A DNA stretch of 64,000 nt, taken from positions 62,001-126,000 of the forward strand of contig CALSNJ010000003.1 of NCBI GenBank assembly GCA_943787745.1, given 5' to 3'. Shown piece by piece: positions 1-26,003 of the stretch. The notes under the pieces are model-generated. The model was given only the letters and a program-made list of their open reading frames with translations, was not told the origin of the DNA and did no database searches. The stretch is from an uncultured Alphaproteobacteria bacterium (GTDB lineage: Bacteria; Pseudomonadota; Alphaproteobacteria; UBA6615). Both the position numbers and the translations under genes were made by a program. Numbering within the stretch: position 1 is the stretch's first letter; each line of letters begins with the position of its first letter.

Positions 1-1037
1 AGTTCGGCGGTCGCCTGTTCCATGCGCCGTGTGGCGGAGACTGTAGCGTCGAGGCGGGCAACCGAATGCTCGATCAGCAGGACGGCACGCTGGGCGCGTT
101 CGTTCTCGGCCGGGATGGCATGTTTGAGGGGCTCGATGGATTGGGAGATGACCGCCAGCGGCGCCTTGAGCGCATGGGCATTTTCTTCTGCGGCCTGACG
201 GATGGAATCCGCGGATTCGTTCAGCACGCGGACCAGTCGGTCGAACTCTTCGGCCACCCAGTCGAGTTCGGGGATGTGGTTGCGTTCGCGAAAGGACGGG
301 TTGTCGGCGCGTCGAACCCGGATGGCACGGGCGACGGCACCGAAGCGGCGGACGTTGCGCCAGATATCGCCAAACAGACTCACGACGAGCACGACGAGCA
401 GGAGGTACATGGCGAGTGCCAGCTGGGCCTCGGCAGTTTTCCAGTAAGGCTGGCCGATGGAGGACCCCAGAAAGCTCTCGGTCGCGTTGGAGGTGACGAC
501 GATCCAGCACCCGCCGGGCAGGTTGATCGGGGTGATCGAGGTCAGAACCTCTTCTGCGCCGGCCGGGTTGGTGTAGCGCCGGGCCAGCGGCTCACCCCCG
601 GCGCAGGTATCGGGGAGGGCCCTGAAAATTCCGGTCGCCATCAGTTCGCTGCGATCGCGCTCGATATACTCAGCTGTAACCTGCGGGTTGGCGGCGATGT
701 AGAAGAATCCCTCCGCGCCCTGGACCTCGGTCGGGCGGAACAGCAGTTTGACGTTGATGTCGGGCCCCCCTATTTCCGCCAGTTGCACGCCGATTTTGGC
801 AGCAGCACCGTCACCGAAATTGGCAAGAATAGGGGTTAGCGTGGCTGCGATCAGGCGGCCTTCTTCCTGCACACTGCGTTGAAGCAGGGCCGTACGTTCG
901 ATATCGGCACTGCGGAACTGACCATAGAGCACGGCGGGAACGGTGATCAGGATCGCGATCAGCAATGCGAGCTTCGTGGCGAAAGAGCGCCAGACCATGC
1001 TCGCACGGCGCAGTGTGTTGGGGAATCGACTAGCCAT
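1..1037 (-). CDS. Sensor histidine kinase, N-terminal part (continues beyond the window)
   Basis: Membrane sensor kinase expected to phosphorylate the response regulator encoded immediately upstream. Reading from the ATG at 1037 there are 345 codons before the window edge. TM1 is about residues 21-38, followed by a periplasmic loop of about 165 residues, TM2 at about 206-224, a HAMP-like linker, and a phosphoacceptor box AHALKAPL with His288. The ATP-binding domain lies outside the window. The start overlaps the regulator's stop codon by 8 bp, so translation is probably coupled. The two-TM architecture and its OmpR-type partner resemble ChvG/ExoS kinases of alphaproteobacteria, but I cannot assign orthology and the periplasmic sensor domain is unrecognised. 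Confidence 0.88.
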   Translation of the reverse strand, partial: MASRFPNTLRRASMVWRSFATKLALLIAILITVPAVLYGQFRSADIERTALLQRSVQEEGRLIAATLTPILANFGDGAAAKIGVQLAEIGGPDINVKLLFRPTEVQGAEGFFYIAANPQVTAEYIERDRSELMATGIFRALPDTCAGGEPLARRYTNPAGAEEVLTSITPINLPGGCWIVVTSNATESFLGSSIGQPYWKTAEAQLALAMYLLLVVLVVSLFGDIWRNVRRFGAVARAIRVRRADNPSFRERNHIPELDWVAEEFDRLVRVLNESADSIRQAAEENAHALKAPLAVISQSIEPLKHAIPAENERAQRAVLLIEHSVARLDATVSATRRMEQATAE

Positions 1038-1800
1038 CCGTCTTGTCTGTCGCGACCCAGCGATAGCCGAAGCCGGTATAGGTCGCGATGGCATCAAAGT
1101 CGGAATCTACATCGCGGAATTTCTGTCGGATGCGTTTTATGAAGGTCCGCACATTGCTGCGGTAACCATCGTCCCCGGCCCCGGCCACAAAGCCCTCGCC
1201 ATGGACCAGGTCATAGATTTCGCGATAGCGAATATCCGTACCCGACCGTGTCGCGAGATGATGCACGATCTTGAATTCTGTGAGAGTCAGATCAACCCGG
1301 TTGCTCTGCCACAATGCGCGGCTTGAATCCGGATCGAGCTGCAGTGCTCCGATTTCGATCTCGCCGCTGGTTTCGTTGCTGTTCCGGTCGGGAATCTGGC
1401 GGTCGAGGATCAGTTCGATCCGCCGGCGCAGGATGGCAAAGCTGCGGGACTTTTCCACGAAATCCACCGCGCCCCCGAGAAGCGCGGCCTCTTCGTAAAT
1501 CTGATCCGACAACACGGTGAGGAACACCACCGGGACATCGATCTTGCGGGCGCGCAGATGTTTGAGGACCTCGATGCCGTTCATCTCGGGCATCTTCCAG
1601 TCCAGCAACATCAGGTCACCCCTTGCCTCGCCGCTGAAATGGTCGAGCGCGTCCTGTCCGTTTGAAAACCCACTGACGGTAAAACCAGAATCAATCAGGT
1701 TCTGCTCGAGCGATTCCCGCAACAACGCGTCATCGTCGACGATGAGAACATGGATCGGACTGTCGGGTGTTTCTGAGATGGTCTCAACCTGTGCTGTCAT
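1030..1800 (-). CDS. OmpR-family response regulator (ChvI-like)
   Basis: 256-residue DNA-binding response regulator. The receiver domain (residues about 17-130) has the acidic cluster DDD at 22-24, phosphoacceptor Asp67 in LLDWKMP, Thr95 in VVFLT and Lys117 in DFVEKSRS. A winged-helix trans_reg_C domain (about 150-250) ends in the typical YTGFGYRW. The DFVEKSRS form of the Lys motif occurs in ChvI-like regulators, but orthology is unproven. The gene sits between a lipoprotein gene, whose last 17 bp overlap its start, and its kinase, which overlaps its end by 8 bp. A plausible target is the set of 11-bp repeats in the divergent promoter region at 2487-2514. Confidence 0.92.
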   Translation of the reverse strand: MTAQVETISETPDSPIHVLIVDDDALLRESLEQNLIDSGFTVSGFSNGQDALDHFSGEARGDLMLLDWKMPEMNGIEVLKHLRARKIDVPVVFLTVLSDQIYEEAALLGGAVDFVEKSRSFAILRRRIELILDRQIPDRNSNETSGEIEIGALQLDPDSSRALWQSNRVDLTLTEFKIVHHLATRSGTDIRYREIYDLVHGEGFVAGAGDDGYRSNVRTFIKRIRQKFRDVDSDFDAIATYTGFGYRWVATDKTDG

Positions 1801-2377: not shown

Positions 2378-2486
2378 TGTGCTCCAACATTTTCCGGTGT
2401 TGCCCGGGCGGCCCCCGTTTCCGCCGGAATACGATAGAACGTTTTCACCACATATTACCTCCCCAGTGGTAGCCGGGTTGGGCAAA

Positions 2487-2514
2487 TGACACAACGATGT
2501 CACAGCGTTGATAC
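2487..2514 (+). promoter_or_regulatory. Triple 11-bp direct repeat, PhoB/OmpR-type operator
   Basis: Three elements TGACAC, TGTCAC and TGATAC follow each other at 5-nt gaps (11-bp period) on the plus strand. The first two also form the inverted pair TGACA-N6-TGTCA. This is the same architecture as the pstS Pho box at 34194-34221. It lies between the divergent genes at 2377 (minus) and 2579 (plus), 64 nt before the latter's start. The binding protein could be PhoB or the adjacent ChvI-like regulator. The repeat is visible in the sequence; its function is inferred. Confidence 0.5.
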
Positions 2515-2578
2515 AACCTGGCGGACGGACTCTCGCGTACAAAGCTTGTCAAATTGTTCTGAATTTGGACGGTGTTGT

Positions 2579-3019
2579 ATGGGTCATTTTGGAGATATTG
2601 GTCGTCTCGACGGCTTTGCTGACCGGCTCTCCCGAGCGCTTCGCAGGCTTTCGATGTGTGGGTTGCGGGTGTCGGTTTTTGCCGTCTCGGTCCCGGGAGC
2701 AGAGGGACGCGATCTTTATCACATCCTGAAATCCGCCCTGTCGGACGCCTATGAAGTCGGTCGAATTGATTCTGACAATGTCGGCATCCTCTACTATGGC
2801 CCACAGCCGGGGGCGTCAGATTCGGGAACCCGGGACATGCTGCTGCGTGACCTCGTTGCGCTTTTGCCCAACAATCCACTGACGTCGCGCGCCGACCCCC
2901 ATATCCGTGCGCTCCATGTCTCCACTGCACAGGTCGTGGACACCCCTGAATTGATTGCCGCGCTTCTCGGTGCGCCGAGCCGCCGGGTTTACGCGGACCT
3001 GAAACGGCACGCTGCCTAG
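2579..3019 (+). CDS. Hypothetical protein, GGDEF-like fold without catalytic motif
   Basis: 146-residue soluble protein of no family I can name. I start it at the ATG at 2579 because the sequence becomes protein-like there; the in-frame stretch from 2486 looks like untranslated leader and holds an operator-like repeat. The pattern DGFADRLSRALRR, then VSVFAVSV, then GRIDSDNVGILYYGP resembles a shortened nucleotide-cyclase/GGDEF fold in which the GGDEF signature is replaced. An Arg/Pro/His-rich ORF on the opposite strand is probably a shadow. It is convergent with the adenosine deaminase gene. No strong ribosome binding site is visible, only GGAC about 10 nt upstream. Confidence 0.6.
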   Translation: MGHFGDIGRLDGFADRLSRALRRLSMCGLRVSVFAVSVPGAEGRDLYHILKSALSDAYEVGRIDSDNVGILYYGPQPGASDSGTRDMLLRDLVALLPNNPLTSRADPHIRALHVSTAQVVDTPELIAALLGAPSRRVYADLKRHAA

Positions 3020-17721: not shown

Positions 17722-19674
17722 ATGGCGAAAGTAATTGGTATCGATCTTGGTACGACCAACTCCTGTGTGGCCGTCATGGACGGTGATGCAGGCAAGGTGA
17801 TCGAAAACTCGGAAGGCGCACGTACGACGCCGTCCATGGTGGCGTTCTCTGAGAATGATGAACGCCTTGTGGGACAGGCCGCCAAGCGGCAGGCCGTCAC
17901 CAATCCGGAGAACACGATCTTCGCGGTCAAGCGACTGATCGGGCGCCGGTTTGACGACCCGCTGACCCAGAAGGACAGGGATCTCGTCCCGTTCGAGATT
18001 GTCGAAGGCGACAATGGCGACGCGTGGGTCGGCGCCAATGACAAGAAATACAGCCCGTCGGAAATCAGCGCCTTCATCCTGCAGAAGATGAAAGAGACCG
18101 CCGAAGCATTTCTGGGCGAAACCGTTGAACAGGCTGTGATCACGGTCCCGGCCTATTTCAACGATTCACAGCGTCAGGCGACCAAGGACGCGGGCAAGAT
18201 TGCCGGCCTTGAAGTGCTGCGCATCATCAACGAGCCAACCGCTGCCGCGCTGGCTTATGGCCTCGACAAGAAAGAAACCGGCACCATTGTGGTCTATGAC
18301 CTTGGCGGCGGTACCTTCGATGTGTCGATCCTGGAAATCGGCGATGGTGTCTTCGAAGTGAAGTCCACCAATGGTGACACCTTCCTGGGTGGTGAGGATT
18401 TCGACGCCCGGATCATTGAGTATCTGGCCGATGAGTTCAAAAAGGATCAGGGCATAAACCTGCGTGAAGACAAGCTGGCACTCCAGCGTCTCAAAGAAGC
18501 AGCCGAGAAAGCGAAGGTTGAACTTTCGTCCTCGACCCAGACCGAAGTGAACCTCCCCTTCATCACGGCTGACGCCTCGGGACCCAAGCATCTCAATGTG
18601 AAACTGACTCGGGCAAAACTTGAAGCGCTGGTCGAAGACCTCGTTGCGCGGACGGTTGATCCCTGCAAGGCAGCGCTCAAGGATGCCGGTCTCAAGCCAA
18701 ACGAGATTGATGAAGTCATTCTGGTCGGCGGCATGACCCGCATGCCAAAGATTCAGGAGACCGTGAAAAACTTTTTCGGGCGCGAACCGCATCGTGGCGT
18801 GAACCCGGACGAGGTTGTGGCCATTGGTGCTGCGATTCAGGCCGGCGTGCTGGCTGGCGACGTAAAGGATGTGCTGTTGCTCGACGTGACTCCGCTGTCG
18901 CTGGGTATCGAGACGCTGGGCGGTGTGTTTACCCGTCTGATTGATCGCAACACGACGATCCCGACCAAGAAAAGCCAGGTCTTCTCGACCGCCGAGGACA
19001 ATCAGGGTGCGGTGACGATCCGGGTCTTCCAGGGCGAGCGTGAAATGGCTGCGGACAACAAGCTGCTTGGTCAGTTTGACCTTGTCGGCATTCCGTCCGC
19101 ACCGCGTGGTATTCCGCAGATTGAAGTCACTTTCGACATTGATGCCAACGGCATCGTCAATGTGTCGGCAAAGGACAAGGGCACAGGCAAGGAGCAACAG
19201 ATACGCATCCAGGCCTCGGGTGGTTTGTCTGACGATGACATTGATCAGATGGTCAAGGACGCGGAAGCGCATGCCGAGGATGACAAGAAGCGGCGTGAGA
19301 CGGTTGAGATCCGGAACCAAGCCGAAACGCTTGTGCATCAGACGGAACGCAGCCTGAGCGAACATGGCGACAAGGTTGGGGATGAAGACAAGTCCGCAAT
19401 CGAAAGTGACATGGAAGCACTGAAGACAGCCCTCGAAGGCGAGAATCAGGAAGACATCCAGGCGAAGCTCGAAGCGCTTGCCATGTCTTCGATGAAACTC
19501 GGAGAAGCCATCTACAAGTCTGAGCAGGCTGAGATGGGCGACGGCGAAGCCGGTCCGGCAGATGCCGAAATGGACGGTGACGCCGAGGCCGCCAGCGATG
19601 AGACCATCGTTGACGCTGACTTCGAAGAGGTCGATGACGACGACGAGCCCAAGGATCGCTCGTCAACCTCCTAA
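17722..19674 (+). CDS. dnaK: Chaperone DnaK (Hsp70)
   Basis: 650-residue ATP-dependent chaperone. The N-terminal ATPase has [47 protein letters not shown] and [14 protein letters not shown]. The substrate-binding domain begins after [17 protein letters not shown], and an acidic C-terminal tail ([11 protein letters not shown]) ends the protein. Length is typical for alphaproteobacteria (about 635-645). It is followed by dnaJ after 89 bp that contain a strong hairpin, and grpE is nearby, so the KJE system is clustered. Confidence 0.99.
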
Positions 19675-19694
19675 CTGGACACAAACGGATAATT

Positions 19695-19727
19695 GCGGCG
19701 CGGGTGAGGATGACTTCTCCGCGCCGC
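19695..19727 (+). other. Intercistronic hairpin between dnaK and dnaJ
   Basis: Perfect 9-bp arms GCGGCGCGG (19695-19703) and CCGCGCCGC (19719-19727) around a 15-nt loop. No U tract follows, so a stability or partial-attenuation element that lowers dnaJ relative to dnaK is more likely than a terminator. Confidence 0.6.
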
Positions 19728-19763
19728 ACTTCCTAATCGTCCAAATCGGGGTAAGGGTCATCG

Positions 19764-20903
19764 ATGGCGGATAAGGATTACTACGAAGTTCTGGGTGTGG
19801 ACCGTGGCGCGGAAGCGTCGGCGATCAAGAGCGCGTATCGAAAACTTGCCAAGGAACTGCACCCGGATAAGAATCCCGGTGATGACAAGGCCGAACAGCG
19901 CTTCAAGGAAATCAATCAGGCTTATGACATCCTCAAGGATGAACAGAAGCGTGCCGCTTATGACCGGTATGGCCATGAAGCCTTCCAGAATGGCGGCGGC
20001 GCTCATGCGGGCGGTGGTTTCGAAAATGGTGGCGGGTTTGCCGACATCTTTGATGAGATGTTTGGCGAGTTCATGGGTGGTCGTGGCGGTGGTCGTCGAC
20101 GCACGAGCACGCGTGGGTCGGACCTGCGCTACAATCTTGACGTCAGCCTCGAGGATGCCTTTGCGGGCAAACAGGCGCGCGTCAAGGTCAACGCATCAGC
20201 AGGCTGTGATGAGTGTCATGGTTCCGGCGCAGCTGGCGGCTCGGAACCGGTCAGTTGTCCGTCTTGTCAGGGGGCCGGCAAAGTCCGCGCTCAGCAGGGA
20301 TTTTTCACCGTCGAACGAACCTGTCCGACCTGTCAGGGTGCGGGTCGGGTGATCGACAATCCTTGTGGGTCGTGCGGGGGTGCCGGACGCGTCAACAAGG
20401 AAAAGACACTTTCGGTCAACATCCCGTCCGGGATCGAGGATGGCACGCGCATCCGTGTCGCCGGTGAAGGTGAGGCTGGCTTGCGCGGTGGTCCGGCGGG
20501 CGATCTCTATATTTTTGTTACGATCCAGCCGCATCGGTTTTTCCGCCGTGACGGCGCGGACATCCAGTGTCGTGTTCCGATTCCGATGACAACGGCGTCG
20601 CTCGGCGGATCGATCGAGGTTCCGACCATTGATGGCGGGCGCGCGCGGGTAAATATCCCTGCGGGCACCCAGACCGGACAGCAGTTCCGGTTGCGGGCCA
20701 AGGGCATGTCAGTGCTGCGTTCGAATGTGCGTGGCGACATGTATGTCCAGGCGCAGATCGAAACCCCTGTCAATTTGACCAAGGACCAGCGCGACCTGCT
20801 CAAGAAATTTGAGGACTCCGGTGGCGGATCCCCAAAACACAGTCCGGAATCCGAAGGCTTTTTCACCAAGGTGAAAGAGTTCTGGGACGACTTGAAAGAC
20901 TAG
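19764..20903 (+). CDS. dnaJ: Chaperone DnaJ (Hsp40)
   Basis: 379-residue class I J-protein that delivers clients to DnaK and stimulates its ATPase. J-domain at residues 1-70 with HPD in [10 protein letters not shown]; Gly/Phe-rich linker about 75-115; four zinc-finger repeats [24 protein letters not shown] and CGSCGGAG (about residues 150-215); C-terminal substrate-binding domain. All cysteines of the zinc repeats are present. Likely co-transcribed with dnaK. Confidence 0.99.
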
Positions 20904-20981
20904 TCAAACGGACGTTGGGTTCTGCGTGTGAAGTGGTATCTTTCCCACAGGTTCGACAGATGAGCCGGGGTGGGAAAGAAT

Positions 20982-21794
20982 ATGACTGATCAATTGAAAA
21001 TTGGAATCGTGGGTGCGGGTGGCCGGATGGGCCGCATGCTTGTGCAGGTTGTGGCCGAGAGCGAAAGTTGCGTGCTTGGCGGCGCAAGTGAAGTTCCGGG
21101 CTCAACGCTTGTTGGCAGTGATGCCGGAACCCTCTCTGGTGTCGGTGAGAATGGCGTGATCATCACAGATGATACGGCTGCCATGTTCGGCAAGGTTGAT
21201 GCGGTCATTGATTTCACGGTTCCGGCCGCGACCGCGACACACGCTGCGCTTGCCGCAGAAAACGGTTGCGCGCTTATCGCAGGGACCACCGGGCTGGAGA
21301 ATTCTCATCGGGCTGCCCTCGAGAATGCGGCGAAGACGGTTCCTGTCGTCTGGGCCTCGAACATGTCGAGCGGCGTCAATCTGATGTTTGCCATCACAGA
21401 GCGTGTGGCGCGCGCCCTTGATCCGGATTTCGATATTGAGATCGTCGAAATGCATCACAAGCACAAAGTGGATGCGCCCTCAGGTACGGCGCTGAGTCTC
21501 GGCGAAGCCGCGGCGCGTGGTCGTGGTGTCGACTTTGACAGTGAGAAGGTGCTGTCTCGCGAAGGAATCACCGGCGCACGTGAGCGGGGCACGATTGGTT
21601 TTGCGACCTTGCGCGGCGGGGATGTTGTGGGCGAACACAGTGTCATTTTTGCCAGTGCGGGTGAGCGCATTGAACTGACCCACCGGGCGACCGACCGGGG
21701 AATTTTTGCGCGTGGCGCCGTGCGTGCGGCCCGCTGGACCGCCGGGCGTGCGCCGGGATTTTATGCGATGGCCGACGTTCTGGGTCTCGATTAA
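20982..21794 (+). CDS. dapB: 4-hydroxy-tetrahydrodipicolinate reductase
   Basis: 270-residue NAD(P)H-dependent reductase of the lysine/diaminopimelate pathway, which also supplies peptidoglycan. N-terminal Rossmann motif IGIVGAGGRMGRMLV; AGTTGL; the family signature EIVEMHHKHKVDAPSGTAL; and HSVIFASAGERIELTHRATDR. I use the ATG at 20982 with GGGAAAG upstream; a GTG at 20970 would add four residues. It follows dnaJ by 78 bp, a linkage seen in alphaproteobacteria, and overlaps the convergent DUF2244 gene by 4 bp. Confidence 0.97.
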   Translation: MTDQLKIGIVGAGGRMGRMLVQVVAESESCVLGGASEVPGSTLVGSDAGTLSGVGENGVIITDDTAAMFGKVDAVIDFTVPAATATHAALAAENGCALIAGTTGLENSHRAALENAAKTVPVVWASNMSSGVNLMFAITERVARALDPDFDIEIVEMHHKHKVDAPSGTALSLGEAAARGRGVDFDSEKVLSREGITGARERGTIGFATLRGGDVVGEHSVIFASAGERIELTHRATDRGIFARGAVRAARWTAGRAPGFYAMADVLGLD

Positions 21795-22285
21795 CGCACT
21801 GCGTTTGGTGCGGCGTTCATGTCTCGCAAGGCATCGCGCAAGGCGATGGCCAGCTCGTTCCGTTCTTCAGGGGTGAGGAACACTCCGACCTTTAGTGATT
21901 TACCATGACTTGCGAGGCGCAATTCGTTGTCGCCGCCCGGACGAGATGTCAGGTCGACACTCAGCCAGTGTGGGGGCGCAATGCGGTGATGTTGCTCGCG
22001 ACCTGAAGGTCGGACGCGTGCGATCGTCAGTTCCTCCCGGGTCAGACGCACGCGCTCAAAGGCGCGGCCATCACGGACATTGGTGCGGAAGGCCCACCAG
22101 ATCAGCAGGATTTCGCATCCGAAGAACGGCAGGACGGGCCAGGCACCGAGCGCGGTGAAGTAGAGCGCCACGAGCGCGAGTGCGCCGGCTATCCCCAGAA
22201 TGACATTGCGAACACCACGCGGGCTCAAGCTCCGATGCGGGTAAAGGACGGCATCAAAAAGCGGCTCTGTCTCAGTATGGCTCAT
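21791..22285 (-). CDS. DUF2244 membrane protein
   Basis: 164-residue protein of the DUF2244 family, function unknown. Two adjacent TM helices (about 25-45 and 47-66) lie between a short N-terminus with PHRSLSPRG and a cytoplasmic C-terminal part with RVRLTREELTIAR and GVFLTPEERNELAIALRDAL. The family is commonly next to nth in alphaproteobacteria, and here the two are divergent across 111 bp. The stop overlaps the dapB stop region. Confidence 0.9.
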   Translation of the reverse strand: MSHTETEPLFDAVLYPHRSLSPRGVRNVILGIAGALALVALYFTALGAWPVLPFFGCEILLIWWAFRTNVRDGRAFERVRLTREELTIARVRPSGREQHHRIAPPHWLSVDLTSRPGGDNELRLASHGKSLKVGVFLTPEERNELAIALRDALRDMNAAPNAVR

Positions 22286-22396
22286 GGTGAAAGTCTAAGC
22301 TGCCGATAGGGTCTGGAAAAGTAACGCTTTGTCGCAGTGCCGCAGTTGTGAATGGTGGCTGATCGGCACGATGAAACGCGCTAGTCTGCTTGTGTT

Positions 22397-23041
22397 ATGC
22401 CCATGATGAAAAAAGACGCGATCGAGGAATTTTTCCGACGCCTGTCCGGCGCGGACCCGACCCCGACAACCGAACTCGAATATCGCAACACCTATACCCT
22501 TCTGGTTGCCGTCGTGCTGTCCGCACAAGCGACTGATGTGGGTGTGAACAAGGCGACAAAAGAGCTTTTCAAGACGGTTGATACACCACAGAAAATGCTC
22601 GCCCTGGGTGAAGATGAGCTGATCAAGCATGTTCGCACCATTGGTCTTTTCCGCACCAAGGCCAAGAACGTCATCGCGTTGAGCGAGATGCTCGTCAAGG
22701 AGCATGGCGGGGAGGTGCCGCACGACCGTGCCGCGCTCGAAGCCTTGCCGGGTGTTGGCCGCAAGACGGCGAATGTCGTTCTGAACACCGCCTTCGGCGA
22801 GCCCACCATGGCAGTGGACACCCATATCTTCCGCCTCTCCAACCGAACGGGGCTGGCGCCGGGCAAAAATGTACGCGCGGTCGAGGACAAACTGCTCAAA
22901 CGTGTGCCGACTCACTACCTGCAGCATGCCCATCATTGGCTGATCCTGCACGGTCGCTATGTGTGTAAGGCGCGCAAACCTGATTGTGCGGTCTGCATCG
23001 TTGCGGATGTATGCACTTACAAGGCGAAAACCATCGCCTGA
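22397..23041 (+). CDS. nth: Endonuclease III (DNA glycosylase/AP lyase)
   Basis: 214-residue base-excision-repair enzyme that removes oxidised pyrimidines. The helix-hairpin-helix LEALPGVGRKTANVVLN carries the catalytic Lys, and MAVDTHIFR the catalytic Asp. The 4Fe-4S ligands CKARKPDCAVCIVADVC (Cys-x6-Cys-x2-Cys-x5-Cys) are intact at the C-terminus. Length is normal. Confidence 0.98.
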   Translation: MPMMKKDAIEEFFRRLSGADPTPTTELEYRNTYTLLVAVVLSAQATDVGVNKATKELFKTVDTPQKMLALGEDELIKHVRTIGLFRTKAKNVIALSEMLVKEHGGEVPHDRAALEALPGVGRKTANVVLNTAFGEPTMAVDTHIFRLSNRTGLAPGKNVRAVEDKLLKRVPTHYLQHAHHWLILHGRYVCKARKPDCAVCIVADVCTYKAKTIA

Positions 23042-23059
23042 TCCGAGAAGGTTGGGGGC

Positions 23060-23461
23060 CTAGGAGAAGCTGGCGATGCACCGCTCGGTCGCGCTTGGGT
23101 CAAGTTGCGCTGTGTCGTTGCGCGCCTCGACATGCGTCGCCCCAATGGTCCCGTTCCGGGGATAGAGAAAAATATGCAGCACGCAGTTGTTGCTGCGGTA
23201 AAGCCGGAGTTCGCCCGCGCCTTCGCGCCGAACAATCTCGGGTGCACCAAGATAACTGTCGATCCGGGCCGGGTCAGCGCCCAGTAAGTCGGCCATGGTG
23301 GCACGGGGTGCCGGGCGGCGTGTCGGGGTTGCAGGCTGAAGACGCGCAGTCGCGGTTGGTGATTCGGTGCGGGCAGGGGCCTGAGACCGTTCATTTTGCA
23401 CCAGAGAACAGCCGGTAAGCAGCACAATTGCGAGAATCAGGGGACCAGAACGCCAAAACAT
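23060..23461 (-). CDS. Small lipoprotein, related to the one at 1784-2377
   Basis: 133-residue predicted lipoprotein: TM-like signal at residues 6-15 and lipobox LLTGC with Cys18, then a Pro/Thr/Arg-rich linker to about residue 52. The folded part has LLGADPARIDSYLGAPEIVRRE, a YRSNNCVLHIFLYP block and a final Cys, matching the GAP / VRR / Tyr-Ser-Cys / late-Cys pattern of the lipoprotein in the two-component operon at the start of the window. It is the last gene of the apparent bactofilin operon, starting 4 nt after the stop of a 31-residue ORF. No clear ribosome binding site, which suggests translational coupling. Function unknown. Confidence 0.8.
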   Translation of the reverse strand: MFWRSGPLILAIVLLTGCSLVQNERSQAPARTESPTATARLQPATPTRRPAPRATMADLLGADPARIDSYLGAPEIVRREGAGELRLYRSNNCVLHIFLYPRNGTIGATHVEARNDTAQLDPSATERCIASFS

Positions 23462-23465
23462 GGAA

Positions 23466-23561
23466 TCAGGCGGACAGTACGAAGGCGCTCATCAGCATCG
23501 TCACAACGGCCGCGCCGAGAATAGCGACCCGTGAGGGCCGGTCGCGTCGTGAACTAGGCAT
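23466..23561 (-). CDS. 31-residue putative membrane peptide between bactofilin and lipoprotein genes
   Basis: A short ORF starting at the ATG at 23561, 5 bp before the bactofilin stop codon, and ending with TGA at 23466, 4 nt before the lipoprotein ATG. The peptide has a basic N-terminus (SSRRDRPSR) followed by about 19 hydrophobic residues (VAILGAAVVTMLMSAFVLS), a classic single-pass membrane peptide. The tight overlaps on both sides argue for translational coupling. The only Shine-Dalgarno-like GGGAG is about 14 nt upstream, so expression is uncertain. Confidence 0.5.
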   Translation of the reverse strand: MPSSRRDRPSRVAILGAAVVTMLMSAFVLSA

Positions 23562-24021
23562 GGATTTTGATGTCTCCCAGGACTTCGCCGCCCTGTTCGA
23601 TCTCCAGGCGACCATAGATCACATTGCCTGTGATCTTGCCTGTCGCCGTGACGCGAAGCCCGCGTGCGACTTTGAGGTCACCATCAAACCGGCCGCTGAT
23701 GATTGCGGTATCCACTGAGGCCGATCCGACAAAGCGGCCGCCGCGTGAAACTTCCAGCGCGCGGGCGCTGTTCAGGGTCGCATCAATGCGGCCCTCGACC
23801 ACCAGTGTGTCGCATTCGGTGATATCGCCCTTGAGGGTAATGTCGCGCGCGACTGTGAGCGTCTTGGCATCCTGCTGGTTGCCACGATGTGGCTCGCGCT
23901 CTTCTTTGCGTTCGCCCCGTTCATTCAGATTGGGTATTTCCGCGGCGCGGACCGGCTGTCGATCCAGAAAGCTCAGATCGAGGTCTCGTCGTTCATTCTC
24001 GTCACTGACGTCTGCGCTCAT
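23554..24021 (-). CDS. Bactofilin-family cytoskeletal protein
   Basis: 155-residue bactofilin (DUF583): a charged N-terminal tail (residues 1-55) and a beta-helical core, TLTVARDITLKGDITECDTLVVEGRIDATLNSAR onwards, with the repeating G-x-I/V-x-G pattern and GKITGNVIYGRLEIEQGGEVLGDI. Bactofilins self-assemble into membrane-associated filaments that localise cell-wall or motility factors. The ATG at 24021 (MSADVSDEN) is preferred; 12 upstream codons are in frame. First gene of a three-ORF unit with a small membrane peptide and a lipoprotein. An inverted repeat CGTGA-N4-TCACG is 40 bp upstream (24061-24074). Confidence 0.9.
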   Translation of the reverse strand: MSADVSDENERRDLDLSFLDRQPVRAAEIPNLNERGERKEEREPHRGNQQDAKTLTVARDITLKGDITECDTLVVEGRIDATLNSARALEVSRGGRFVGSASVDTAIISGRFDGDLKVARGLRVTATGKITGNVIYGRLEIEQGGEVLGDIKIHA

Positions 24022-24142
24022 GATCGCGCCCCCAATATAGTCCCCGCGCGAAAACATGGACGTGACTGCTCACGTGATATGCAAGATTCTCGCGACTCTC
24101 AGAGCCTTGGATAGCCTATTTACATCAAAATGTCGATAAAAT

Positions 24143-24160
24143 ATATCAAGCCATTGATAT
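24143..24160. other. AT-rich inverted repeat at the end of the EI24 gene
   Basis: Arms ATATCAA (24143-24149) and TTGATAT (24154-24160) around GCCA. On the minus strand it overlaps the EI24 stop codon and is followed by ATTTTA, so it may be a weak terminator; it also lies about 120 bp before bactofilin and could be an operator. Confidence 0.35.
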
Positions 24161-24853
24161 TGTTAAATTAATGTCATTTTCCTTGGGCCTCTGCCGCTCG
24201 AAAACGTGCAACATCATCGATGTTCCGAACAAGGGCAGCAGAAGGTTTACAATGGGCACTGTTGCGATGAGCGCAAAGACGAGGCCGGCGAAGTAGACCG
24301 TACCGCGGTGCTTTAGTCGAAAATCACGAAGTTCCTTGGGCGACATACGCCGGAATCCAACCATTTCCAGATATTCCCGGCCCAGCAGATAGCCGTTGAG
24401 CCCCCAGCCGGCGACGAAATAGATCGGCGGGAAAAACAGCAGCGGTAGCAGCAAAAGATTGAGAGCAATCAGCAGAACACCGAACTTCAGGCCCACCCAG
24501 ATGGCTTCCGAGATGCCCTGGTCGCGTGGCGGTGCAATCTCGGGATAGTGGCGCGCTTCAACGGCCCGGCAGATCGTTTCGATATACAAACTGGCGTAGA
24601 TGCCCAGGGCCGCGGGCAACAAAAGGATCATCAACAGGAAGGCCGCAACGGACCCGAAGATGTCGATGAAGGTCTCAAGGGCGCCCCCAATCCAGGGCAG
24701 CACGCCGACCAACTCGGTGCTGAAAATCAGCCAGCTGAGGCCGCCCCACAGGACGATGGCCGTGGCGAGACTGAGAAAAAAGCACGTCCAGAGAACGGAT
24801 CGAAAACGAGGGCTGCCCAGGTCACCCAGGGCCTTGAAAAATGCGGAGATCAT
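24146..24853 (-). CDS. EI24/CysZ-like integral membrane protein
   Basis: 235-residue protein of the EI24 (DUF540/CysZ-like) family with about five hydrophobic segments (roughly 20-45, 60-85, 123-150, 195-215 plus a re-entrant part). The family motif WGLNGYLLGREYLEMVGFRR followed by ELRDFRLKHRG is clear. E. coli CysZ imports sulfate, but alphaproteobacterial members are uncharacterised, so I do not assign a substrate. The start is the ATG at 24853; longer frames lack family similarity. Divergent from a PfkB kinase. Confidence 0.88.
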   Translation of the reverse strand: MISAFFKALGDLGSPRFRSVLWTCFFLSLATAIVLWGGLSWLIFSTELVGVLPWIGGALETFIDIFGSVAAFLLMILLLPAALGIYASLYIETICRAVEARHYPEIAPPRDQGISEAIWVGLKFGVLLIALNLLLLPLLFFPPIYFVAGWGLNGYLLGREYLEMVGFRRMSPKELRDFRLKHRGTVYFAGLVFALIATVPIVNLLLPLFGTSMMLHVFERQRPKENDINLTISMA

Positions 24854-24998
24854 ACCGCGCAGTTTAGCCAAGGATGCCGCATGAAGACCATGATAATTCT
24901 GATCACCCGTTCGTTCCGCTAACCCATTGTGTGACGTACAGCCCTCGCTATACTCGCGCAGCCATTCATACCCGTTTCCCGAATTTACTGGAGTTTCC

Positions 24999-26003
24999 AT
25001 GACCGACACTGCGGCCCAGGCTGGAGAGCTCGACGTTCTGTGCGTCGGCAACTCAATTGTTGATGTGCTGACCCAGACCGATGATGCAATGCTGGAGAAA
25101 TTCGGCATGGTCAAAGGGACCATGGCGCTCATCGATGCTGATCAGGCAGAAGCCCTCTACGCGCAAATGTCCCCTGCGGTTGAAACCTCGGGCGGTTCTG
25201 CAGGCAACACGGCGGCCGGACTGGCCTCACTGGATGCCAAATGCGCGTTTATCGGGCGGGTGCGTGATGATCAGCTCGGGGATATTTTCACCCATGATAT
25301 ACGCTCGATCGGTGTTGAATATGCGACCCCGGCGGCGACCGATGGTCCGCCAACAGCGCGCTGTCTGATTTTGATTACGCCGGACGCGCAGCGCACGATG
25401 AACACCTTTTTGGGCGCCAGCGTTAATCTGGGTCCTGAGGATATTGATAAAGACCTCGTGGCGCGCGCGAAGGTGACATATCTTGAGGGTTATCTCTGGG
25501 ACCGTGATGAGGCCAAGGCGGCATTTCTGCGGGCCGCCGGTTTGGCAGCGGCGAAAAACCGGATGGTGTCTCTGAGCCTTTCCGATCCTTTCTGTGTGGA
25601 CCGTCATCGGGACTCGTTCCGCGAATTTGTCGCCGGACATGTGGATGTGCTGTTTGCCAATGAAGACGAGATCATGTCGCTTTATCAGGTCGAGAATTTC
25701 GATGAGGCTCTGCAGCATGTCAGGCAGGACTGCCGCATAGCGGCACTGACCCGGTCCGAAAAAGGGTCGGTCGTGGTTTCTGGTGAGGAGGTTCACGTCG
25801 TTGATGCCGAGCCGGTCGGTGCCGTGGTTGATACGACCGGGGCTGGCGATCAGTTTGCTGCCGGATTCCTGCATGGGTTGACCCGCGGTGAAGACCTGGC
25901 GACCTGCGCGCGGATTGGCGGGATTGCGGCAGCCGAAGTCATCGCGCATGTCGGGCCGCGCCCGCAGGTGAAGCTGGCAGACCTGGTGGTACAAAAGCTT
26001 TAG
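24999..26003 (+). CDS. PfkB-family carbohydrate/adenosine kinase
   Basis: 334-residue ribokinase-fold kinase. Motifs: VLCVGNSIVDVL, the substrate-binding GGSAGNTAAGLASLDAK, an FANEDEIMSLY region and the anion-hole/catalytic DTTGAGDQFAAGFLHG with the base Asp. This close sequence type (GNSIVDVL, GGSAGNTAAG) is usually annotated adenosine kinase in alphaproteobacteria, consistent with a purine-salvage role and with the deaminase at 3044-4714, but the substrate is not proven. The ATG at 24999 is chosen for the normal N-terminus. It ends 4 bp inside the convergent binding-protein gene. Confidence 0.9.
   Translation: MTDTAAQAGELDVLCVGNSIVDVLTQTDDAMLEKFGMVKGTMALIDADQAEALYAQMSPAVETSGGSAGNTAAGLASLDAKCAFIGRVRDDQLGDIFTHDIRSIGVEYATPAATDGPPTARCLILITPDAQRTMNTFLGASVNLGPEDIDKDLVARAKVTYLEGYLWDRDEAKAAFLRAAGLAAAKNRMVSLSLSDPFCVDRHRDSFREFVAGHVDVLFANEDEIMSLYQVENFDEALQHVRQDCRIAALTRSEKGSVVVSGEEVHVVDAEPVGAVVDTTGAGDQFAAGFLHGLTRGEDLATCARIGGIAAAEVIAHVGPRPQVKLADLVVQKL

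Follow-up and report, generated by a model that had tools for sequence, protein, structure and literature searches.

The window, by which we mean the whole 64,000-nucleotide stretch of DNA analysed here, encodes two small lipoproteins in separate gene neighbourhoods. P2 lies beside a bactofilin gene and represents the EI24/bactofilin branch of a lipoprotein family, and P1 precedes a response regulator and a histidine kinase and represents the two-component branch. The genes and features of both neighbourhoods are:

22397 to 23041, plus strand: gene that we take to encode an endonuclease III homologue (nth), the family being recognised from knowledge of its sequence; convergent with and downstream of P2
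23060 to 23461, minus strand: P2 lipoprotein, 133 amino acids
23554 to 24057, minus strand: bactofilin (PF04519, E = 6.7e-20), 92 bp upstream of P2
24146 to 25132, minus strand: integral membrane protein with an EI24/CysZ domain (PF07264, 3.1e-25), the true start of which probably lies inside this open reading frame
1 to 1097, minus strand: N-terminal part of a histidine kinase that leaves the window (whole open reading frame at L081:9515-11098)
1030 to 1800, minus strand: OmpR-type response regulator (Response_reg and Trans_reg_C), which shares 17 bases with the end of P1
1784 to 2377, minus strand: P1 lipoprotein, 197 amino acids, start ATG at 2377
2487 to 2515, minus strand: three 11-base tandem repeats (TGTATCA/TGTGACA/TGTGTCA) before the P1 operon

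P1 and P2 share a layout in which a signal peptide with a lipobox is followed by a Pro/Ala/Thr-rich linker of about 40–60 residues and a small folded part. The P2 lipobox is LTGC (Cys18) and its folded core spans residues 56–131, with motifs that read LGAPEIVRREGAGELRLYRSNNCVLHIFLY...C and with Cys93 and Cys128 at the two positions that are invariant across the family. The P1 lipobox is LSGC (Cys35), its core motifs read FGAPHFVIRQQPATRWHYVSATCTLDLFFF...C and the family-invariant cysteines are Cys137 and Cys184. The initial annotation of this DNA had proposed that the products of 1784–2377 and 23060–23461 have lipobox, linker and core motifs in common, and both open reading frames are indeed present and carry them.

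P1 and P2 are homologous. A BLASTP comparison gives E = 3e-4, a value owed in part to the Pro/Ala/Thr linker, and the linker was therefore removed and the cores compared alone. The profile of P2 orthologues aligns with that of P1 orthologues (A2 versus A3) at 98.6% probability over the full length and, in hhalign of the cores only, at 97.3% probability with a score of 61.2, against a best score of 29.0 among 100 column shuffles and 9.6 for a reversed profile. As the core score stands far above the shuffled controls, the similarity reflects homology and not composition, and the kinship suggested at the outset is significant by profile alignment. A resemblance by chance between two low-complexity lipoproteins could be argued from their long linkers, which raise pairwise scores, but comparison of the cores against shuffles rules out a linker-borne likeness, and the existence of a class-wide family with invariant residues also makes this explanation exceedingly improbable.

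Structure prediction by AlphaFold2 places 79 residues of the P2 core at a pLDDT of at least 90, in the predicted order short helix, helix, four strands and C-terminal helix (alpha-alpha-beta4-alpha). The P1 model, likewise of a monomer, has an identical order of elements, so the two topologies are alike, although the runs drew on largely common helper sequences, such that their agreement is not fully independent. One invariant cysteine is predicted beside the start of strand 3 and the other in the last helix, and a disulfide between these two invariant residues is plausible. The nearest relevant solved structures found by Foldseek are identical for P1 and P2, namely 4ygt (DUF4309) and 4ifa and 4h0a (both CAP-associated N-terminal domains), with probabilities of 0.98–1.00 and E-values of only 0.008–0.2. 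These closest folds derive from Gram-positive extracellular proteins and have no sequence-level match to P1 or P2. A match to the 'CAP repeat' of PDB 8vd6 (E 1e-5) was discarded because it adds up five short matches to the repeat, each too weak to stand by itself.

Neither P1 nor P2 matches any Pfam or NCBIfam family above its cut-off. Within the window's GTDB family P2 has a match in all 24 genomes and P1 in 15, some of these matches being the paralogue picked up across branches. Across Alphaproteobacteria, an 18-member profile finds the lipoprotein in 192 of 386 sampled genomes, and a 48-member profile of the core without linker and signal peptide finds it in 191 of 366 genomes of the class, or 133 of 259 genera. 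A phylum-wide sample of 299 genomes contains 28 matches, all within Alphaproteobacteria and none outside it. The second Gly of an LLG-x-P motif and the two Cys are invariant in all 48 cores, and near-invariance extends to a further Gly, the Pro and a Tyr; P1 and P2 each carry the full set of family features, that is the lipobox, the linker and a core with LLG-x-P, Tyr and two Cys. Matches to LppK and similar NCBIfam entries cover only the linker or signal peptide and were set aside.

The family occupies two fixed genomic settings. We surveyed 92 regions (32 from the window's family and 60 class-wide) with neighbours assigned by HMM on six-frame open reading frames, giving 90 members, of which 88 fall into two settings: 70 directly behind EI24 and/or bactofilin on the same strand and 18 before regulator and kinase, in a sample that leans to P2-like members because the query was P2-like. 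The 18 are directly upstream of an OmpR-type regulator, which they usually overlap, and the histidine kinase comes next. Gene orientation is constant in both settings, and many genomes hold one member of each branch. The remaining two members stand one with nth only and one with the kinase divergent. When the cores are placed on a tree, those linked to a kinase fall into a single group (SH-aLRT 90) and the setting label changes once, which indicates that the branch split is ancient; the few alignment columns leave the inner branching poorly resolved. The family suspected by the initial annotation, with one member next to a kinase gene and the other next to a cytoskeletal one, proves real and previously unrecognised across the class as a whole, in the form of two anciently diverged branches. 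By Pfam, NCBIfam and literature search, this two-branch family with its fixed partner sets is new; kinase accessory lipoproteins in general are an already known kind.

In the two-component branch the lipoprotein is an obligate neighbour of the kinase. The kinase periplasmic sensor domain has an invariant Cys pair of its own, and a search with this sensor region alone (A7, 14 sequences) against 352 class genomes returned 61 places in 59 genomes, with best E-values per genome from 1e-109 to 1e-43; the 61 comprise the kinases above the threshold, with the two-piece kinase of G036 counted once. At all 61 the regulator is preceded by a lipoprotein core (30/30, plus 12 by coordinates, plus 19). Among genomes of the window's family, those with the kinase are precisely the six that have a P1-type core (G000, G003, G004, G009, G011 and G013). 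Azospirillum plasmids carry the same triad, annotated as 'hypothetical protein - response regulator - HAMP histidine kinase', and in A. thermophilum it shows the 17-base overlap seen in the window. The three genes are DM194_RS15530/35/40 in A. ramasamyi and DEW08_RS24740/35/30 in A. thermophilum.

In keeping with this co-occurrence in the window's family, G007 (L078:8400-9300) retains an N-terminal remnant of P1 with the folded core gone and G006 (L079) only the N-terminal part, both in genomes that lack the kinase, and these remnants look like the outcome of a deletion beginning inside P1. In G009 (L073, L074) both the kinase-branch lipoprotein and the kinase are present twice, and in the second set the two genes are divergently oriented.

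The lipoprotein also co-diverges with its kinase. Over 50 triads, lipoprotein distances correlate with those of the sensor domain at r 0.82 and with those of the regulator at 0.70, with partial correlations of 0.60 and 0.13, respectively. A stricter test in 28 genomes with both paralogues gave the kinase-linked lipoprotein a partial correlation of 0.31 with the sensor domain, higher (permutation p 0.001) than those with the kinase core (0.08) and the regulator (0.09), and the EI24-branch paralogue one of 0.14 with the sensor domain; such values may in part mirror similar evolutionary rates and shared ancestry. This co-divergence lends moderate support to a contact between P1 and the kinase in the periplasm. 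Overlapping genes may also stay together through co-translation alone. Envelope sensing, which had been proposed for both lipoproteins, finds good support in the kinase-linked branch, from the 61/61 linkage, the co-loss within the family and the moderately specific co-divergence.

Our results favour a model, to which we give a probability of about two in three, of two ancient adaptor branches in which P1 is a third component acting on the kinase and P2 a partner of EI24. The family looks like one of envelope adaptors, of which one branch probably tunes a sensor kinase. Both proteins would face the periplasm, with a design that combines a lipid anchor, a long flexible linker and a domain of about 80 residues that is probably closed by a disulfide. 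P1 would reach from a membrane to the periplasmic sensor domain of the kinase, bind there and set kinase activity, as activator or inhibitor, by the state of the envelope.

From linkage, co-loss and co-divergence, P1 probably works like QseG or FeuN. QseG is anchored in the outer membrane as a lipoprotein, binds the loop that QseE exposes to the periplasm and is required for QseE activity (PMC6075780), and the structure of the QseG-QseE complex has been solved (PMC12691602). In QseE-QseG-QseF, as in the P1 triad (61/61 loci), a lipoprotein is encoded with a kinase and a regulator. The order here is lipoprotein-regulator-kinase and the regulator is of OmpR type, whereas QseF acts at sigma54 promoters; the partner of P1 consists of Response_reg and Trans_reg_C and is not a sigma54-type regulator. 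QseG itself gave no match in the NCBIfam and PDB profile searches, whose libraries may not include it. In the FeuN-FeuP-FeuQ system of Sinorhizobium a small periplasmic modulator, FeuN, is likewise encoded with the pair and keeps FeuQ in check by binding to it (PMC12486126). The published description is of a periplasmic protein and not of a member of the P1/P2 lipoprotein family, and FeuN is compared here by role only. The general layout of P1 and P2 is also reminiscent of RcsF, which has a lipid anchor, a Pro-rich flexible linker and a small Cys-bearing sensor domain. The Rcs phosphorelay is absent here, and RcsF profile matches span the signal peptide and linker only, without the core by which membership would be judged. 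To our knowledge only a few lipoproteins, such as QseG and RcsF, switch a sensor kinase by acting on it directly. If P1 had such a role, it would be a class-wide case that differs in fold and regulator type and shows perfect linkage in the sample. Much less is known of envelope sensing in Alphaproteobacteria than in enterobacteria, and a protein annotated only as hypothetical would become a testable third component, also in culturable Azospirillum.

The triple repeat before the P1 operon is conserved across the genus in five genomes, the two with P1 remnants among them, and is expected zero times by chance in the window. Its sole exact copy in the genome is at the P1 operon, and looser matches occur near the control count. 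Tandem sites of this kind suit OmpR-type regulators, which makes self-control by the regulator a fair guess; the repeats are a candidate binding site, through which the regulator probably controls its own P1 operon. An open reading frame of 177 amino acids at 2486-3019 on the plus strand, conserved in the genus, diverges from the P1 operon and starts within or beside the repeats.

Operon position and a candidate upstream operator would fit any co-regulated gene, so P1 might instead be a regulon target or a chaperone-type lipoprotein, kept in the operon for the sake of expression and making no contact with the kinase. We consider this unlikely, given a 61/61 linkage over many families and a lipoprotein whose divergence follows that of the sensor domain more closely than that of the regulator. 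On the side of the favoured model, genes for a DegP-like protease and a ManC-like enzyme are found behind triads in other families and, with a glucosaminidase, would fit an envelope-related regulon. The glucosaminidase gene (PF01832) lies just behind the triad in three families (L162:8749-9810, L176:2068-3111 and L208:2481-3476). At L196 and L207 (G290 and G210) the triad stands beside HflK/HflC-like genes and a DegP-like protease, and at both loci the reading frame of either kinase or lipoprotein seems interrupted or curtailed.

A further alternative is that P1 and P2 are divergent BamE/SmpA proteins that aid outer-membrane protein assembly and whose gene neighbours are incidental. BamE/SmpA-OmlA is a small outer-membrane lipoprotein domain, whose succession of a helix, G-x-P and a W-x-Y strand recurs here. 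BamE (PF04355) is also the family most often weakly matched (9 of 48 members, best E 0.0057, all below significance and short of the curated cut-off), and the BamE/OmlA-type structure 2pxg aligns weakly from G-x-P to W-x-Y (E 1.3). P1 and P2 themselves, however, have no Pfam BamE match at E<=10, BamE is absent from the top 50 in both Foldseek searches, and a 61/61 linkage to one kinase is hardly incidental. P1 and P2 further differ in an extra C-terminal helix, in their gene partners and in an invariant Cys pair, of which we know no counterpart in BamE. BamE membership was accordingly rejected, and we regard this reading as very unlikely.

P2 would be its sister, co-produced with an inner-membrane protein of EI24 type and in most cases a bactofilin, and its likeliest role is to bind or regulate the EI24 protein in the periplasm; this partnership is a weaker inference than that of P1 with the kinase. 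Upstream on the same strand, EI24 is found at 64 of 70 P2-branch loci and bactofilin at 48. At the 22 that lack bactofilin the lipoprotein comes straight after EI24, often with overlapping start and stop. In another sample of 77 EI24-bearing genomes the lipoprotein family is present in 64 and absent in 13, and it is nearby in 22 of 30 EI24 loci. The 22 loci without bactofilin and the 64 EI24 genomes with the lipoprotein show that EI24, and not bactofilin, is the more constant partner of P2, though not an absolute one. The nth gene, convergent downstream at 52 of the 70 loci, serves as a positional marker only. Loss of bactofilin from the genome where the locus has none was considered and discarded, as all 20 of those 22 genomes that were searched have a bactofilin elsewhere. 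A plasmid search with the EI24-branch query gave no match.

The cytoskeletal link drawn by the initial annotation from the bactofilin next to P2 is weaker than it seems, in that bactofilin is absent at 22/70 loci. P2 could yet be a true bactofilin partner that uses EI24 to couple the cytoplasmic bactofilin scaffold to the outer membrane or cell wall and contributes to cell shape, in the manner of LmdC elsewhere. A same-strand bactofilin directly upstream at 48/70 loci would suit such a role, and bactofilins act with neighbouring envelope proteins (PMC10945521). With the lipoprotein straight after EI24 at the 22 other loci and bactofilins elsewhere, this role is possible but doubtful. In bactofilin-LmdC operons a bactofilin is likewise encoded with an envelope protein (PMC10945521). 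An M23 peptidase bearing a transmembrane helix, LmdC differs from the partners here, which are EI24 and a lipoprotein, and no M23 peptidase was seen adjoining P2. In either case an unstudied EI24-bactofilin-lipoprotein operon is brought to notice.

The notion that both operons belong to a single module finds no support, as the branches have long been separate, the EI24/bactofilin branch is the only one left in many genomes and no regulatory site common to the operons was found, the exact triple repeat occurring only at P1. It is a distinctly unlikely variant that the ancestral domain served as an exchangeable adaptor and that the paralogues compete or cooperate. In this case one copy would have become the indispensable periplasmic arm of the kinase, its sister would monitor or regulate an EI24-bactofilin assembly, and in species that have both, the pair would link the state of cell wall and cytoskeleton to gene expression.

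Around P2 the order dnaK-dnaJ-dapB-DUF2244-nth-lipoprotein-bactofilin-EI24-sugar/adenosine-kinase-like (17722-26003 of the window) is very stable across the family. At some loci an amidase-like gene is inserted between the adenosine-kinase-like gene and EI24. In G018 (L058 8993-9428) a 435-base gap without a recognised bactofilin separates EI24 from the lipoprotein and possibly holds a degenerate or broken bactofilin.
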